In this document: one piece after another, positions 256-8,580 of the stretch
How positions within the stretch are numbered: position 1 is the first letter of the stretch
Layout: each line of letters starts with the position of its first letter
Origin: Candidatus Nealsoniibacteriota bacterium
Lineage (GTDB): Bacteria; Patescibacteriota; Minisyncoccia; Minisyncoccales; RBG-13-42-11
Assembly: GCA_026396115.1 (NCBI GenBank)
Contig: JAPLXL010000008.1
Span: 1-37,705 of the forward strand
Length of the DNA stretch: 37,705 nt
Direction: 5' to 3'
The notes under the pieces: model-generated
The model's database searches: none
Told to the model about the DNA's origin: nothing
The model's input: the letters and a program-made list of their open reading frames with translations, nothing else
Position numbers and translations under genes: made by a program

Positions 256-1353
256 TTATTTCAGTATCACTCCTCCTTTGATCCGGATGCTGCCTTTTAA
301 GTAGGGAGAATGGAAAAGATTGTAATTGAGGATAATTTCATTCAAAACCGGGCTCAGGCCTGCTTCATTAGTTTCAAATTTCATCTTGTAATAAAAATTG
401 TGGCCCGACCAATTCAGATTGTATAAAATGAATTTTGCCTGGCCATCGGACACAAAAGTCCAGACATCTTGCACTCCGTCAGCCGAATACCAAATCTCGC
501 TGGTGGTGCTAAATTGAACCCAGAGAGCAGTACCAGCCGGAACAGTGGAAGAAGCATAAAAATTATTAATAATCACGACCTCCTCCCCAGAAAAAAGATT
601 CTTTGAAATTAAGGTTCCTGAGGAGTAGTAGCTGAGGGCATCAGTCGTGAAGCTTACATAAGAGCCGTAAGAAGTTCCTTTCCCATTAGTAGCATGAGCT
701 CTAACATAATAGGTAGTATTTGGTTCTAAATTAGTTAGATTTAAAGAATAAGCCCCCTCACCAAAACTTCCTGTTTCAGAAACGCTCCAAGTATCTGTTT
801 CAGTTAAACCATATTTGAAACCTCTAGTGGTAACGATTCCGCCACCATCATCAGTAACATTGCCATTAGCTACAGCACTTCTTACATAAACCGGAGAAGT
901 AGTAGCAGTAGTCACTGTCGGAGCAGTTCCCTGGGTCCAATAAACTCTTATCTCATCTAAGACCGGGGTAGTACTGGTATCTGAGGTTTCAAATTGCATT
1001 TTGTAATAGAAATTAGGCTCTGCTGACCAGCCGGACAAACTAATTGCATCCCCTGTTGCCAGATGGTTACCATTAGAAAGAGTATTCCAGACCCCGGCAG
1101 TATGAGTAGCTGAATACCAATTGCTATTGTCCTGGCTGAATTGAACTTTTAAGGTTGTAGTAGCGGTGGTAGTGCAGTTGTAGCCAAAATAATCTATACT
1201 GCCCACCACATCTGAGGTTGAGAAAAGATTCTTTGAAATCAAAGTGCCGGTGGCATAATAAGTCTGAGCCCTTACTTCGTTATTAAAACTAAGGCCGATT
1301 ATGACTATAACCGTGGCCAGAAGAATTAAAATAACCTTTTTATTACCGGTCAT
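256..1353 (-). CDS. Secreted protein with two copies of a beta-rich module flanking a fibronectin-III-like domain
   Basis: N-terminal hydrophobic segment. GTLISKNLFS...VQFS...WYSA...FYYKM.FET....PVL.EI occurs twice. Central NLEPNTTYYVRAHATNGKGTSYGSYVSFTT is Fn3-like. Confidence 0.75.
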   Translation of the reverse strand: MTGNKKVILILLATVIVIIGLSFNNEVRAQTYYATGTLISKNLFSTSDVVGSIDYFGYNCTTTATTTLKVQFSQDNSNWYSATHTAGVWNTLSNGNHLATGDAISLSGWSAEPNFYYKMQFETSDTSTTPVLDEIRVYWTQGTAPTVTTATTSPVYVRSAVANGNVTDDGGGIVTTRGFKYGLTETDTWSVSETGSFGEGAYSLNLTNLEPNTTYYVRAHATNGKGTSYGSYVSFTTDALSYYSSGTLISKNLFSGEEVVIINNFYASSTVPAGTALWVQFSTTSEIWYSADGVQDVWTFVSDGQAKFILYNLNWSGHNFYYKMKFETNEAGLSPVLNEIILNYNLFHSPYLKGSIRIKGGVILK

Positions 1354-1441
1354 GATTTTATCCTCAATGAAAAATATTGAATTTTTGGCAAAAATTTTTC
1401 AAATTCCAAATTCCAAATTATCTATCTCAAAGGAAAAATAT

Positions 1442-2263
1442 CTATTGCCCGCGAACGCAACGCACGGAGTAGCTGTTGGTCTCAGCGGCGTTGAAGACAC
1501 TGCCAGTGCCGAACTGCAGGACGCAGACATAGCCCGCACCGAACTCAGAAGAAGACCAGTAGTAGTTGGTAGAAATACCGGGAAGGCGGGAATACGGCGA
1601 AGAACCTTTTGCTTGATCACGGATGCTATCTAATTCCAAAATAGTGGGCAATCTCCAGGCACTTCCTTTGGCTTTACAGGCATCCATCGCCAGAAAAGTA
1701 CCGGCAGCTGAGGTATAATATCTTTCTAACCAATGCTGAGCTCCGATAGCAGTGTTATCTTTACCAATCTTCAAACTTGAATCATGGGTTCCTCCAATAT
1801 CTCCTCCGCTAATAGGTGTGGCAGGACCCCAGGTTTTTGTTCCACTTACATCTGTTTTTGACCAAAGTAGATTAGCATAGACATTGCTATCAGTAGCAAT
1901 ACAAACGGCAGCAGTAGGAGTGGCAGCCGCATTTGGTAAAAGGATACAATTGTAATCATCGCAGAAAATCTTTTTAGTGGTGGTTGCTAAAGCATTAGAA
2001 AGGTTGCTAATATCACGGACGATAGTCGTAGTTGACCAGTTCCAGGAAGGATTGGGAGAATAGCACTCAGCCAATTTAACCTGACCGGTAGTAGTCGCAA
2101 TCTCTACTTTTTCTGTCCCCTTACCAATTTTTGTCTCATTAGTAAAAGAATCGCTGATAGAATCAGGGTTAGCTCTAACCACCAGAAAACTAATCACTCC
2201 CACAACAATGATAATGGCAAAAACTACCAAAATTTTGTAAGACTTAAGATTTTTATATTTCAT
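1442..2263 (-). CDS. Membrane-anchored/secreted protein with C-terminal Lcl/DUF1566-like (C-type-lectin-like) domain; candidate DGR target
   Basis: N-terminal TM. C-terminus AWRLPTILELDSIRD...YYWSSSEFGAGYVCVLQFGTGSVFNAAETNSYSVRCVRGQ matches the WRLPT...YWSS...VRCVR pattern of DUF1566/Lcl domains. Confidence 0.8.
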   Translation of the reverse strand: MKYKNLKSYKILVVFAIIIVVGVISFLVVRANPDSISDSFTNETKIGKGTEKVEIATTTGQVKLAECYSPNPSWNWSTTTIVRDISNLSNALATTTKKIFCDDYNCILLPNAAATPTAAVCIATDSNVYANLLWSKTDVSGTKTWGPATPISGGDIGGTHDSSLKIGKDNTAIGAQHWLERYYTSAAGTFLAMDACKAKGSAWRLPTILELDSIRDQAKGSSPYSRLPGISTNYYWSSSEFGAGYVCVLQFGTGSVFNAAETNSYSVRCVRGQ

Positions 2264-2414
2264 TTTAAATTTTAGGTTGAATTAAAATTCGACCTTTACG
2301 AATGACAGCTAAAACAACCCTTTTCCAGGTTCTTAACTTGTAGAGTTTAGGCATGCTCCTAGGCATGTTTATAATATATATGGATACCCTTGTTATACGT
2401 TATACATTTCACGC

Positions 2415-4118
2415 TTACTTGATTTGGTCGTAGGCAGCAAGGAGAATCTCATAAATCTGAATCGTGACACCTGCTGGAACCTGAACTCGGAGACTCCAAT
2501 CATTAGTATTAGTCGGAATAGTTACTGCCGGAGTAATATAAACTTCGCCCTTACTTAAGTCAATTGAAGCAGAGGCAGGAACTGTGAAGGTAGCGGTTGT
2601 GGTAGCACCGGTCTCGTTCCAAACCGTCCAGGTTGAAGAAGCAGTGGTGGTACTATCAGCATAGCGAATGACAAACTTATGAATTCGGTCCGTACCGGCT
2701 GCCGCAGCAGAAAACGGATAATCCTCAATAGTTCGAGAAACAGTCGTGGCGGTTTGACAAGCGGTACTGCAGCGAGTCGGCAAATCAAAGCCGAAAATTG
2801 GAATCATCTCTCTCAAAACTTCTATTCCGCCTTTGCCAATTTGATATCCTTGATAAGTTTCAATCCAATCACCCGATGCCAGAATTATTTTGCCTGAGGC
2901 TGGGTCTAAAATAATACCTCCTGTGCCTGAACCAATGGTGGTGGTGGCAGTAGAAGTATATAAGGCTGAAGTAATTCCTCCAGCTCCGCTAATGGTGAGC
3001 GTTCCTGTAGTAGTAGCCCAACTAAAATTAGTGTCCCCAGCAATGGTATTTTGATCAACAAAGAAAGAGACCTGTCCGGCTACAGGCGTACCCTGTTTCT
3101 GTACTCCGCCAGCACCAACCACCGACTGCCAAGTCAAACCACCTGAGCCATCAGTGGTTAAAACATAATTATTCGTACCGGTGCTTGTAGGCCAAGTGTA
3201 GGTGGTAGTAGCGGCCATTGAGGCATGGGGTTGGAAAACAAGACCGTAGCCACTATTGTTTGAGATTATAATTTGACCGGCTGTTCCACTTCTACCTGAT
3301 CTAATTGCTCCGAATACATCAAGAGGATAACCAGGAGTATTGGTTTTTATACCAAGTCTTCCGGTACTGGTAGCCCAAAAAAGATTGGTGGCATCTTGAA
3401 CAATCAAACCAGCGCCATCAGCCAAAAGAACACCTCCGGCAGTTAATGTGGTCGTTGCTTGCAGAGCGACAACACCGCTTAAATTAGGAAGGGTGTAGGT
3501 TGTTGTTGCGCTTAAATCGGCTATTGTCAATTTCCCTCTACCTTGCGCATCATAAAACCAAAGGCTTGTTCCTTGGGTTCCGCCCGAAGTAAAAGCATCT
3601 CCTAAAGTAACATCACCAACAGCAGTTATATCTCCAGCTCCTGCCGTACTAGTTACTGATTTCCATGTAAGCTGATCTCCGGCTTGGTAAGTCAAAACAT
3701 AATCAGCAGAAGGTGGAGTTATGCCATGCTGGGGCAAGATATAGGTTTTGGTTGAAGTTACAGTGGTCGGTGCTTGAAAGCCAACATAATAGCTAGTGCC
3801 TCCGGTAAATCTTAATACCTGATTTGCTCCAGATAAACTTACGGTTCCGGTGGCGACTTCTAATGTCACTCCCGCAGCAGGGTTTTGACTGGACGTTCCA
3901 CCAACAATAAGACTAGCTGTTGCTCTGATAGTACCGGTAACTCTTTGAATTTCCTCCATCACTATTTCTCCAGTATCAATGTTGTAGTACATATTGGCAG
4001 CAAAAAGAACTCCGGCAGCAATTATTACTGAAAAAGCAATAAACAAGAAAGAAACAAATCGCGTACCTCTAACCAACTTTAGTTTCGGTTTAAATATTTT
4101 TTTTAATGGATTTTTCAT
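2415..4118 (-). CDS. Membrane-anchored tail-fibre/adhesin-like surface protein
   Basis: N-terminal TM (FLFIAFSVIIAAGVLFAANMYYNIDTGE). Repeated LTYQAGDQLTWKSV / LTTDGSGGLTWQSV and WATSTGRLGI fibre-like motifs. C-terminus NDWSLRVQVP...EILLAAYDQIK. Confidence 0.8.
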   Translation of the reverse strand: MKNPLKKIFKPKLKLVRGTRFVSFLFIAFSVIIAAGVLFAANMYYNIDTGEIVMEEIQRVTGTIRATASLIVGGTSSQNPAAGVTLEVATGTVSLSGANQVLRFTGGTSYYVGFQAPTTVTSTKTYILPQHGITPPSADYVLTYQAGDQLTWKSVTSTAGAGDITAVGDVTLGDAFTSGGTQGTSLWFYDAQGRGKLTIADLSATTTYTLPNLSGVVALQATTTLTAGGVLLADGAGLIVQDATNLFWATSTGRLGIKTNTPGYPLDVFGAIRSGRSGTAGQIIISNNSGYGLVFQPHASMAATTTYTWPTSTGTNNYVLTTDGSGGLTWQSVVGAGGVQKQGTPVAGQVSFFVDQNTIAGDTNFSWATTTGTLTISGAGGITSALYTSTATTTIGSGTGGIILDPASGKIILASGDWIETYQGYQIGKGGIEVLREMIPIFGFDLPTRCSTACQTATTVSRTIEDYPFSAAAAGTDRIHKFVIRYADSTTTASSTWTVWNETGATTTATFTVPASASIDLSKGEVYITPAVTIPTNTNDWSLRVQVPAGVTIQIYEILLAAYDQIK

Positions 4119-4159
4119 AATTAGTTAATTGTTAATAATGAATTCGACCTTTATAATTA

Positions 4160-4194
4160 ATTGTTGATTGTTGATTGTTGATTGTTGATTGTTG
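4160..4194. repeat. Tandem heptamer (ATTGTTG)x5
   Basis: Five perfect copies followed by ATTCGACC, upstream of the 4118 start (minus strand). Confidence 0.97.
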
Positions 4195-4240
4195 ATTCGA
4201 CCTTTTCCACCACCACTTTTTAACAAAAAGTGGTGGGGAG

Positions 4241-6430
4241 TTAATTTATTTGATCAAATGTTAAAAGAAAAATGTTAAAAATTCGGATGGTACTATCTGA
4301 TGGAACTTTTACTTCCAATTGCCAATCATTTTCAGGAAGAGTATAGAAACTGCTCAAATGAGAAACTCCTTCTTCCAATGAAGAAAGGTTTTGGCCGGAA
4401 AAATCAAAACTGATAGATGTTGTACTGTTAGCCGGACGATAAACTCTCCAATATGATTGAGAACTGGTGGCAATGTCATCGGCAAAATTTATAAGGAAAG
4501 CGAATTTTCGGTTTGTTCCCGAGAGAGGAGAAGGAAGAAAGTTTAAAAAATCAGAAAAATATTTTGAAACTCTGACAAATTCTATAGTTGAAGTGGTTTG
4601 GGCCGGAAAGGAAAATCTAAAAATAGGAGTGCTACTTTGTAAAATTAATTCTCCGGTTTTTCTTACCGTCGCGTCGTCAGCGGCTGAAATAAAAGTCGCT
4701 CCTTTTATGGTAGCTGAAGAGGCATCAAAAAGATTAACACCACCAGCCAACCTAATTTCACCGGTTAAAGAATTTATTATCATTGTTTTTGAAGATAAAA
4801 GTTCTGTTTGGCTTCCGCTAATGGAAAATTTTAAATAATTATCATCATCATATTTCAAAACTAATTGGTCTAATGTAGAAGTAGTTATAGTAAGAGGACC
4901 TTGAAAAAATCCGCTTCCGGCAACAGTAAGAGTCGCTAAAGTAGAAGTGGTACCAATTCCAATTGCCGAACCGGTATTGTAAAGAAAAGAGTCGGCTATC
5001 CAATTTGTGCCATTATATCTTAGAGTTTGACCACTGAACTCTCCTGAAGGAAGAACGCCTGAAGGCGCGGATTGCCAGGTTCCAAAACCGGAAGCATCTG
5101 AGGTTAAAATATAACCTGAAGTGGCATTGGTCGGAAGTTGAAAACCAAGTATCTTTATTGTTCCAGCCACATCTAATTTTTGAGCCGGAGTAATGGTACC
5201 TATGCCAATATTCCCATTGGTTTGATAAAGAATAGAATTTACCAAACTGGTAGCCCCGGTCCAGATCGGAAAATAATTGGCAGAACCCGAACCAGTAATA
5301 CCACTAACCGCCCCTCCTCCTCTTCTTCCTCCTCCTCCCACCGGCAAGGTACTCAAACACCTTCCTCCTGCCAAATCAGTGCAGATATCACCGGTCGCCT
5401 GGATTCTTCCTCCAACATGAAGAGCATAAGCCGGATCTTCTTTCCCTATACCAACATTCCCTGTCGGAGCGATGGTAATTAAAATTCCCTGATAAAGGTC
5501 AATGATAGAAGAATCATCAATCCTTTGAGGGCTAATAAATTTAGCTAATCTATTTAGAGTCCCGCCGCCAGCAAGAACCTCTCCTCCCAGCCCGACACAA
5601 TTACCGGTGGAAAGGCAAACTATGCCTGATTGGTTTGGAAAAGTATAAGTTCTATCGCTAGTAAGAGTGGCAGTAATAAGAGTTCCTTTAAAATCTCCTT
5701 CATCTATTATAAAAGCCGGCGAACTGACAAACTCTTTCACATTTAAGGAAGAGTTAATAGCAGTTTCGGCATTGATAGTAAGATAAGGTTCAACAGCAAG
5801 AATGCCAAAAACTTCTCCGTGAGAAGGAGGGGGTGGCAACTGAGCTAACTTTCTAAATTCACTTATGTTGGCTAAAAAATAGTAAATCGAATCTACAAAA
5901 TTAATTTTTGCATTGATAAAGAAAACAATTAAGCCAAAAATTAAAACTATAAATACTGGTTTGAGAAAAACGGATAATTTGAAAGATGGTTTTAGTTTTT
6001 TTTCGGGTTGAAATTCTTCCTCAATTCCAGAAAGTAAACGAGAAGGTGTATCATAAGGTGTATCATATATATGTATAGGCAAAGACGGAGCAAAAGGCGT
6101 TTTAAATAATCTTTCCTCTAAACCTTTTTCCCTTTTCTCTTTTTTTTCTTTCTCTTCTTTTATTTCTCTTTTTATTGCTTGAATACTTTTTCCAGCTTTT
6201 ATTTTCCTATTAATTTCAAACAATAACCCGACCACATCTTTTGAATAAGCTCCTTCGGGAGAATTATTATTAAAACATTTTCTTCGGGCATGAGGTAAAA
6301 GCCCAATTTTGACATAATAACGCAAGCGGTTCCGAGGATCTCCATTCCCAAAATTAACTCCTAAATCTTGAACCTGGCGAATAACTTCATCAATACTTAT
6401 TAAATTTTCATTTTCTCTCCCAATATACAT
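4241..6430 (-). CDS. Transmembrane MerR-like HTH protein with large fibre-like ectodomain
   Basis: N-terminus NRLRYYVKIGLLPHARRK...GAYSKDVVGLLFEINRKIKAGKSIQAIKREI resembles a MerR winged HTH. TM FIVLIFGLIVFFINAKI. Ectodomain contains GNVGIGKEDPAYALHVGGRIQATGD and NIGIGTITPAQKLDVAGTI fibre motifs. Confidence 0.8.
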   Translation of the reverse strand: MYIGRENENLISIDEVIRQVQDLGVNFGNGDPRNRLRYYVKIGLLPHARRKCFNNNSPEGAYSKDVVGLLFEINRKIKAGKSIQAIKREIKEEKEKKEKREKGLEERLFKTPFAPSLPIHIYDTPYDTPSRLLSGIEEEFQPEKKLKPSFKLSVFLKPVFIVLIFGLIVFFINAKINFVDSIYYFLANISEFRKLAQLPPPPSHGEVFGILAVEPYLTINAETAINSSLNVKEFVSSPAFIIDEGDFKGTLITATLTSDRTYTFPNQSGIVCLSTGNCVGLGGEVLAGGGTLNRLAKFISPQRIDDSSIIDLYQGILITIAPTGNVGIGKEDPAYALHVGGRIQATGDICTDLAGGRCLSTLPVGGGGRRGGGAVSGITGSGSANYFPIWTGATSLVNSILYQTNGNIGIGTITPAQKLDVAGTIKILGFQLPTNATSGYILTSDASGFGTWQSAPSGVLPSGEFSGQTLRYNGTNWIADSFLYNTGSAIGIGTTSTLATLTVAGSGFFQGPLTITTSTLDQLVLKYDDDNYLKFSISGSQTELLSSKTMIINSLTGEIRLAGGVNLFDASSATIKGATFISAADDATVRKTGELILQSSTPIFRFSFPAQTTSTIEFVRVSKYFSDFLNFLPSPLSGTNRKFAFLINFADDIATSSQSYWRVYRPANSTTSISFDFSGQNLSSLEEGVSHLSSFYTLPENDWQLEVKVPSDSTIRIFNIFLLTFDQIN

Positions 6431-6939
6431 ATTGAACGTGAGGATTTGATAAACCTTTTGGTTTTTTTATACGATTAAATATAGACTCCCTATAGATATA
6501 CTTCCGAGAAATTTTTCCCGTCACGGGAAATTTCTATATTATTTCATTATCTTTGAAGCAAACACCCTTGTCAAGAGCTACAATTGTGGAAAACTTAGAG
6601 CTAAAATGAATTGACCCGTAAGCGGCGATTCTCAATGATTGGGCCTGATATTGAAAAGGGATAACTTCATTTAGATGGAGCAGTAAAATTAAAATAATCC
6701 TCAAAACAATACGATTATTTGAAAAAATAAGATTAATTGTTATTTATAATCTTTATTAATGTTTATTAGTGTTTATTACATATTTTTCAGGACATTTTAG
6801 AGTCAAGACGCAATAATCAGAACAAAATCCTGATAACAACTCGAACTTTTTTGTGAAAAGGGCTTTTTTGTTTTAAAATTCAAAATAAAAGGCCCTTTAT
6901 CCGTTTTAGGAAATTTAAACCAACTTGTTCCTTTCTAGG

Positions 6940-7030
6940 CGAAGAGAACTTTGTTCTCTTCTTAACCTTCGCCTCCATAGTCGAAAGAGAATTTCATTCT
7001 CTTTCTCACCTTCACTTCCTTCGGAAGCTC
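6940..7030. repeat. Interspersed palindromic element, three consecutive hairpins
   Basis: GAAGAGAAC-TTT-GTTCTCTTC (6941-6961), GAAAGAGAAT-TTC-ATTCTCTTTC (6983-7005), CTTCC-TTC-GGAAG (7015-7027). Confidence 0.85.
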
Positions 7031-7060
7031 GGTAATGGAAGCTCGGTAATTGAAATTAGC

Positions 7061-7848
<788 letters not shown>

Positions 7849-7851
7849 GTT

Positions 7852-7914
7852 GAAGAGATAAATCTCTTCTCCACTCTTCATTGCGATTTGAGTAGTCTAA
7901 GAGATAAATCTCTT
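7852..7914. repeat. Interspersed palindromic element (two hairpins)
   Basis: GAAGAGAT-AA-ATCTCTTC (7852-7869) and AAGAGAT-AA-ATCTCTT (7899-7914). Confidence 0.8.
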
Positions 7915-7941
7915 CTTAATCCTTCATTATCATTCAAATAT

Positions 7942-8580
7942 ATGGATAATCAAATTTTCTTTATTATTTTAATTGGTTTTGGCGTTTTGGCAATAATTTT
8001 ATTCGGCCTAGATATTTATTATTTAGCGAGAAAACCTAAAGAAGAAAAGGGCGTCCTGTCTTTAAAATTTTCTGAAAAGTTCTTGCCAGAATTAGAAAAA
8101 ATAATTAATCAAGAGATGAAAAGAGCTATTTCGGAAATCAATCAAAAAGTTACCAATGAAGCAATGGAATCTTATAAAAAACAAATGGCCACTTTTTCCC
8201 AGGAAGCAGAAAACAAGATGGCCGGTTGGGATGAAATAACTAAAAAGGAAATTTTAAAATTTAGCAATACCTGTTCTCGGGCCGAAGATTTAATATTGCA
8301 AGAAGCAAAGAGTAAAACGAATGAATTAAGTAAGGGTCTGGATGAAAAAATCGATCGGATTTGCCAATTAGCGACAGAATCTATAAACCAAAAAATTGCC
8401 AAAACCGAAAAGAATATCGAAGATTATAAAAAAGAAAAATTAAAAGAGATAGACCAAAAAATTTACCAAATGATAGGAGAAATAGCAAAAAAAATAATCG
8501 GAAGAGCAATTGACCTTTCTACTCATGAGAAATTGGTGATAGAAACTCTCCAAAAAGCAAAAAAAGAAGGAATTTTTTAG
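7942..8580 (+). CDS. atpF: F-type ATPase b-like peripheral-stalk subunit
   Basis: Single N-terminal TM, long coiled coil, C-terminus IYQMIGEIAKKIIGRAIDLSTHEKLVIETLQ resembling b subunits. Start placed at the internal ATG 7942 rather than the ORF-track start 7888, which lies in a repeat element. Confidence 0.8.
   Translation: MDNQIFFIILIGFGVLAIILFGLDIYYLARKPKEEKGVLSLKFSEKFLPELEKIINQEMKRAISEINQKVTNEAMESYKKQMATFSQEAENKMAGWDEITKKEILKFSNTCSRAEDLILQEAKSKTNELSKGLDEKIDRICQLATESINQKIAKTEKNIEDYKKEKLKEIDQKIYQMIGEIAKKIIGRAIDLSTHEKLVIETLQKAKKEGIF

Follow-up and report, generated by a model that had tools for sequence, protein, structure and literature searches.

Among the targets of diversity-generating retroelements (DGRs), DUF1566/Lcl_C is reported to be the commonest Pfam domain (PMC6642488). 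Cellular DGRs of clade 2 are found in Patescibacteria/CPR and act on C-type-lectin-like targets with a C-terminal variable region (VR), usually without a recognisable conserved domain (Roux et al. 2021, PMC8144416). In Bordetella phage BPP-1, the VR likewise occupies the 3′ end of its gene and has an identical GC-rich tail, and homing requires a hairpin/cruciform after the VR (PMC3240598). Targets parted from their machinery have also been described: Treponema denticola isolates without core DGRs keep remnant target genes (PMC4891356), and the cyanobacterial paralogue all3226 has kept TR-VR homology with no reverse transcriptase (RT) nearby (PMC7517822).

The gene considered here lies in the window, i.e., the whole stretch of 37,705 nucleotides that was analysed, which is the entire contig C5 of its assembly. 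Its product (VP, variable protein) has the same C-terminal domain as DUF1566/Lcl_C DGR targets (PMC4159848, PMC6642488), yet the cassette is absent from the window. The locus is like clade 2 in its CPR host, C-terminal VR and C-type-lectin-like target, and the orthologous VPs of two intact relatives lie in cassettes that would be of this kind. It differs in that VP bears a recognisable domain, Lcl_C, and in that the RT, template repeat (TR) and Avd were not found in this assembly. The GC-rich end of the window VR occupies a position analogous to the BPP-1 IMH (PMC3240598), but the hairpin/cruciform that follows the VR in the phage is not seen. The Treponema remnants and all3226 resemble VP in that a VR-bearing target persists with RT and TR either lost or not close by. 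Both belong to other phyla. The intact DGRs of T. denticola are in other strains of that species, and those related to the window belong to a different family within its order. VP would be a further orphaned DGR target, an incremental addition to those described in other phyla; no report was found for this CPR lineage.

The probable target gene and its orthologues in complete cassettes

The gene and its C-terminal end, YYWSSSEFGAGYVCVLQFGTGSVFNAAETNSYSVRCVRGQ*, are as an earlier note on this DNA described them. The protein consists of an N-terminal transmembrane/signal segment, a novel middle region and a C-terminal Lcl_C domain (PF07603/DUF1566; E=1.4e-13, over the Pfam cut-off). The C-terminus carrying the VR is predicted to adopt a C-type-lectin-like fold; an AlphaFold2 model from a 4-row alignment had a pLDDT of 36 and was unusable for the fold. 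VP is a putative surface protein of a tiny uncultured bacterium, and its orthologues head DGR cassettes in relatives.

A homologue search of the genome contigs with an alignment query found four loci. Single-sequence VP searches of genome contigs and viral contigs gave no matches, the alignment query found no VP homologue in the viral contigs, and none of the phage records encodes a VP relative. In two Staskawiczbacteria of the same order as the window genome, L059 (CAINMG010000130.1) and L060 (MHPJ01000002.1, Candidatus Staskawiczbacteria RIFOXYB1_FULL_37_44), the VP orthologue heads a complete DGR composed of VR, TR, Avd and a DGR-type RT (Table 1). VP is 51-54% identical to these two proteins and 69-71% identical to its homologue at a third locus, L058. 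The Avd and RT of both cassettes were confirmed by matches to bAvd, DivGenRetAVD (just under cut-off) and RVT_1. Their RTs bear the motifs IGNYSSQ and YVDD, and [IVL]GxxxSQ is a mark of DGR RTs. The best solved structure match of the L060 RT is 8ub7, 'Reverse transcriptase' (E=1.7e-36), which we take to be the BPP-1 DGR RT. All VR/TR mismatches fall on TR adenines. Over the 132 bp of L060, these number 11 of 11; in L059, where the pair differs in length by one codon, the two overlapping pieces have 11 of 11 and 7 of 7. The VPs of both relatives thus have TR-VR pairs, with the VR at the same place as in the window gene. An order-wide profile search recovers both genomes, with their TRs as second matches.

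Table 1. Features of the window and of the complete DGRs of two relatives
Locus	Feature	Position	Strand	Basis or remark
Window	DGR target (variable) protein gene, VP	1442..2263	(-)	ORF, 273 aa
Window	Variable region (VR), codons 230-272, by probable origin	1448..1576 (approx.)	(-)	codon-level mapping of the VR/TR pairs in L059 and L060
Window	GC-rich conserved VR 3′ end, GTGCGTTGCGTTCGCGGG, IMH-like	1448..1465	(-)	1 base off matching L059 TR end
Window	AT-rich spacer after VP, 88 bp, without GC-rich hairpin	1354..1441	(-)	hairpin z-scores, inverted repeats
Window	fn3-like secreted repeat protein	256..1353	(-)	BLASTP 41% over 142 aa, E=2e-26 to L060 homologue
L060	VP	up to 822		partial at locus edge
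L060	TR	1211-1342
L060	Avd	1396-1752
L060	RT	2553-3776
L060	fn3-like secreted protein	4065-8021		directly after RT
L059	VP	820-1689
L059	TR	1970-2104
L059	Avd	2136-2537
L059	RT	from 3192 to contig end

Composition and footprint of the probable variable region

The earlier note had been drawn to the 3′ end of the gene by its richness in GC and NNY codons, and this peculiarity is real. The last 50 codons of VP have a GC content of 0.567, and no fifty-codon segment, out of 8702 drawn from 26 other window genes, attains their GC or NNY fraction. NNY codons number 41 of 50 against 31.0 expected, and GC3 34 of 50 against 15.7 expected for the same protein under the codon usage of the window; none of the 5000 simulations was as high in either measure. 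The GC-rich, A-poor and NNY-rich composition covers the final ~45 codons, with A-content falling from 0.284 to 0.147 (28% to 15%) at the VR, and a GC-rich, A-poor VR is common to the window and the intact relatives. The NNY excess alone is weak evidence for a VR, because part of it comes from obligate-NNY residues (F, Y, N, C) and conserved framework residues; the templates of the relatives carry the case.

The window VR was aligned codon by codon to the TRs of L059 and L060, with the conserved segment upstream of the VR in these genes as control. These two comparisons are not independent, as they have the window sequence in common and the relatives are related to each other. Read in this indirect way against the templates of relatives, the VR has mismatches at 18 of 35 and 19 of 34 template A sites, against 24 of 94 and 22 of 95 non-A sites (Fisher p=0.010 and 0.001). 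In the upstream control, A sites are not favoured (p=0.45 and 0.82). Counted at codon positions 1, 2 and 3, the mismatches number 11, 13, 8 and 13, 13, 8 in the VR, and 4, 2, 20 and 5, 5, 21 upstream; when positions 1 and 2 are set against position 3, the ratios are 24:8 and 26:8 in the VR and 6:20 and 10:21 upstream (p=1.6e-4 and 4.6e-4). At template AAY codons, the window VR keeps the third base at 9 of 12 and 10 of 12 sites. With AAY templates, mutagenic retrohoming is expected to turn over the first two bases and to keep the third, as seen here; ordinary divergence does the opposite. Because the reference templates are those of relatives, some of the differences must stem from divergence between the TRs, for example a CAG at one of the AAY sites and TGC in place of TTC. 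An origin of the signal in codon usage only is rejected on the simulations together with this footprint.

The segment at about 1448-1576 is very probably a DGR variable region by origin, as the earlier note had proposed: the orthologues in L059 and L060 are DGR targets with A-specific VR/TR mismatches, and the same footprint is found here. The interval then drawn, 1442-1600, was too wide, as comparison with the intact relatives leaves 1576-1600 outside the VR. The 5′ boundary used here is the start of VR/TR homology in L060. At the opposite end, VR and TR are identical in L059.

Machinery, downstream flank and competing readings

The assembly comprises 792,029 bp in 8 contigs, with an estimated completeness of 100%, and is not closed. 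It contains no match to PF00078, a domain matched in 41 of 147 relatives' genomes, and the RT and Avd of L060, used as queries, found no match in it up to E=10. BLASTN of the VR over the assembly, also to E=10, revealed no template; an A-tolerant 51-bp pattern with 3 mismatches allowed matched the VR itself only; and profile A2, which detects the TRs of both intact relatives, detected none. The expectation of the earlier note that an RT and a template would lie elsewhere in the genome finds no support: the search it proposed, for a DGR RT and an adenine-rich near-copy, revealed neither in the eight unclosed contigs, by means that detect both elements in relatives.

The cassette of L060 is flanked by VP on one side and an fn3-like gene on the other, whereas in the window 88 bp separate VP from the fn3-like homologue; the synteny case for a deletion depends on this one relative. 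No convincing paralogue of the fn3-like gene was found elsewhere in this genome. In L059 and L060, the VR is followed by strong hairpins with a 4-nt loop (z-scores of -5.3 and -8.7) and then by TR, Avd and RT, while no GC-rich hairpin/cruciform stands just 3′ of the window VR (z=+0.62). The missing hairpin is not decisive, because G012, a genome in which a DGR-type RT adjoins the VP, has none at that place either. Within the spacer, 1400-1423 resembles, by eye, the L060 sequence after its hairpin (3 mismatches in 24), and the spacer may be the scar of cassette loss.

The VR has homology to those of intact DGRs and carries their footprint, and the machinery is absent from the assembly. We hold with moderate confidence that VP was once a DGR target and lost its cassette through a deletion. 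TR, Avd and RT would be gone and the last variant frozen, so that the gene is probably what remains, in fixed form, of a system that once diversified itself. In the ancestor, an RT-Avd complex would have copied a TR just downstream of VP, randomising adenines of the template (for the most part those of AAC/AAT codons), and the mutated cDNA would have replaced the VR, presumably diversifying the ligand-binding face of the C-type-lectin-like domain. The cassette (hairpin, TR, Avd and RT), located between VP and the next secreted-protein gene, would then have been deleted in this lineage, leaving the last variant frozen and VP to evolve, as we infer, like an ordinary gene.

The main rival, possible but rather doubtful, is that the DGR is active and the VR a living target, with TR, Avd and RT on an unassembled or unbinned piece past a contig end. 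A displaced cassette could sit in an assembly gap, because the eight contigs have unjoined ends and C5 ends 1.4 kb beyond the VR; there are seven other contigs, most ends are without overlaps, and the contig-end comparison found no overlap that joins either end of C5. Moreover, repeats such as a VR/TR pair, and hypervariation in the population, cause assemblies to break, as seen in L058 and in G012, two contigs of which start with the same VP sequence. Against this stand the estimated completeness, an assembly that passed through the VR unbroken, and the place immediately 3′ of VP, which holds the cassette in both intact relatives and is here contiguous and occupied by another gene, without their hairpin. 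Because VP adjoins the fn3-like gene here, with the cassette between the two in L060 and the hairpin absent, we lean towards cassette loss over an assembly gap. Part of the assembly is joinable: the starts of contigs C4 and C8 have an exact 141-bp terminal overlap, and the two ends of C7 have 105 bp in common.

It is very unlikely that the gene has no DGR ancestry, with ordinary mutation, recombination and selection behind the diversity of its ligand-binding Lcl_C face, and with codon usage, or else a tip gained by horizontal transfer, behind its GC-rich, NNY-rich end. Lcl_C domains do occur outside DGRs, obligatory NNY residues account for some of the NNY excess, and G024 has a VP homologue without RT; but the direct orthologues are DGR targets with similarly GC-rich, A-poor VRs, template adenines are enriched in mismatches while upstream controls are flat, and changes fall on codon positions 1-2 with third bases kept, opposite to the upstream part. 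Finally, VP might be a remote target on which a DGR acts in trans, from a different replicon or from within a partner cell. Treponema offers examples of such targets without core components nearby (PMC4891356), but this reading is hardly credible here, as TR and RT were found nowhere in the assembly, there is no sign of a mobile replicon and no phage record holds a VP relative.

If VP is indeed an orphaned target, it provides a test case for the fate of hypervariable proteins after loss of their mutator. With intact relatives for comparison, the VR alone suffices to recognise a DGR target, and surveys centred on the RT would miss such genes.

Other homologues and neighbouring genes

L058 (QNCD01000078.1), the nearest relative, is syntenic with the window from VP to 7848, with proteins 49-71% identical. 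Its contig breaks off after about 9 nt of the VR, which a VR/TR repeat or a variable population would lead one to expect. The contig is titled Omnitrophota, yet it is syntenic with 1442-7848 of a Patescibacteria window and is probably misbinned. Upstream of VP, the window encodes two adjacent large secreted proteins with C-termini related to each other (2415-6430(-)), the second of which has an N-terminal MerR-like match below cut-off; the pair is kept beside VP in L058.

The VP of G024 (locus L061) is 50-53% identical, has a TGA inside its VR and belongs to a genome without RT; it is perhaps a second orphaned or decayed target. The TGA stands in place of the TGG of YYWSS (L041, about 3440-3600), and the frame runs on into a very large surface protein. 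It seems to us unlikely that Patescibacteria repeatedly shed the DGR cassette and kept the target on a useful variant, with this genome and G024 as independent losses; DGRs would then serve the surface proteins of CPR only for a time, as devices that 'search then freeze'.

The RT of G007, a genome of the same family, was ruled out as a DGR RT, having no DGR partners and no TR/VR pair within 6.5 kb. Repeat pairs lie near other Lcl_C homologues in G028 and G560 (L065, L066); they are not typical TR/VR pairs, as their mismatches are spread over more than one base. In G012, contigs C10 and C6 carry the same Lcl_C gene fragment at their start (L039 1-357, L040 1-357). These fragments diverge almost only in the last ~150 bp and one is followed by a DGR-type RT; the pattern in G012 suggests a DGR with two targets that caused the assembly to break.
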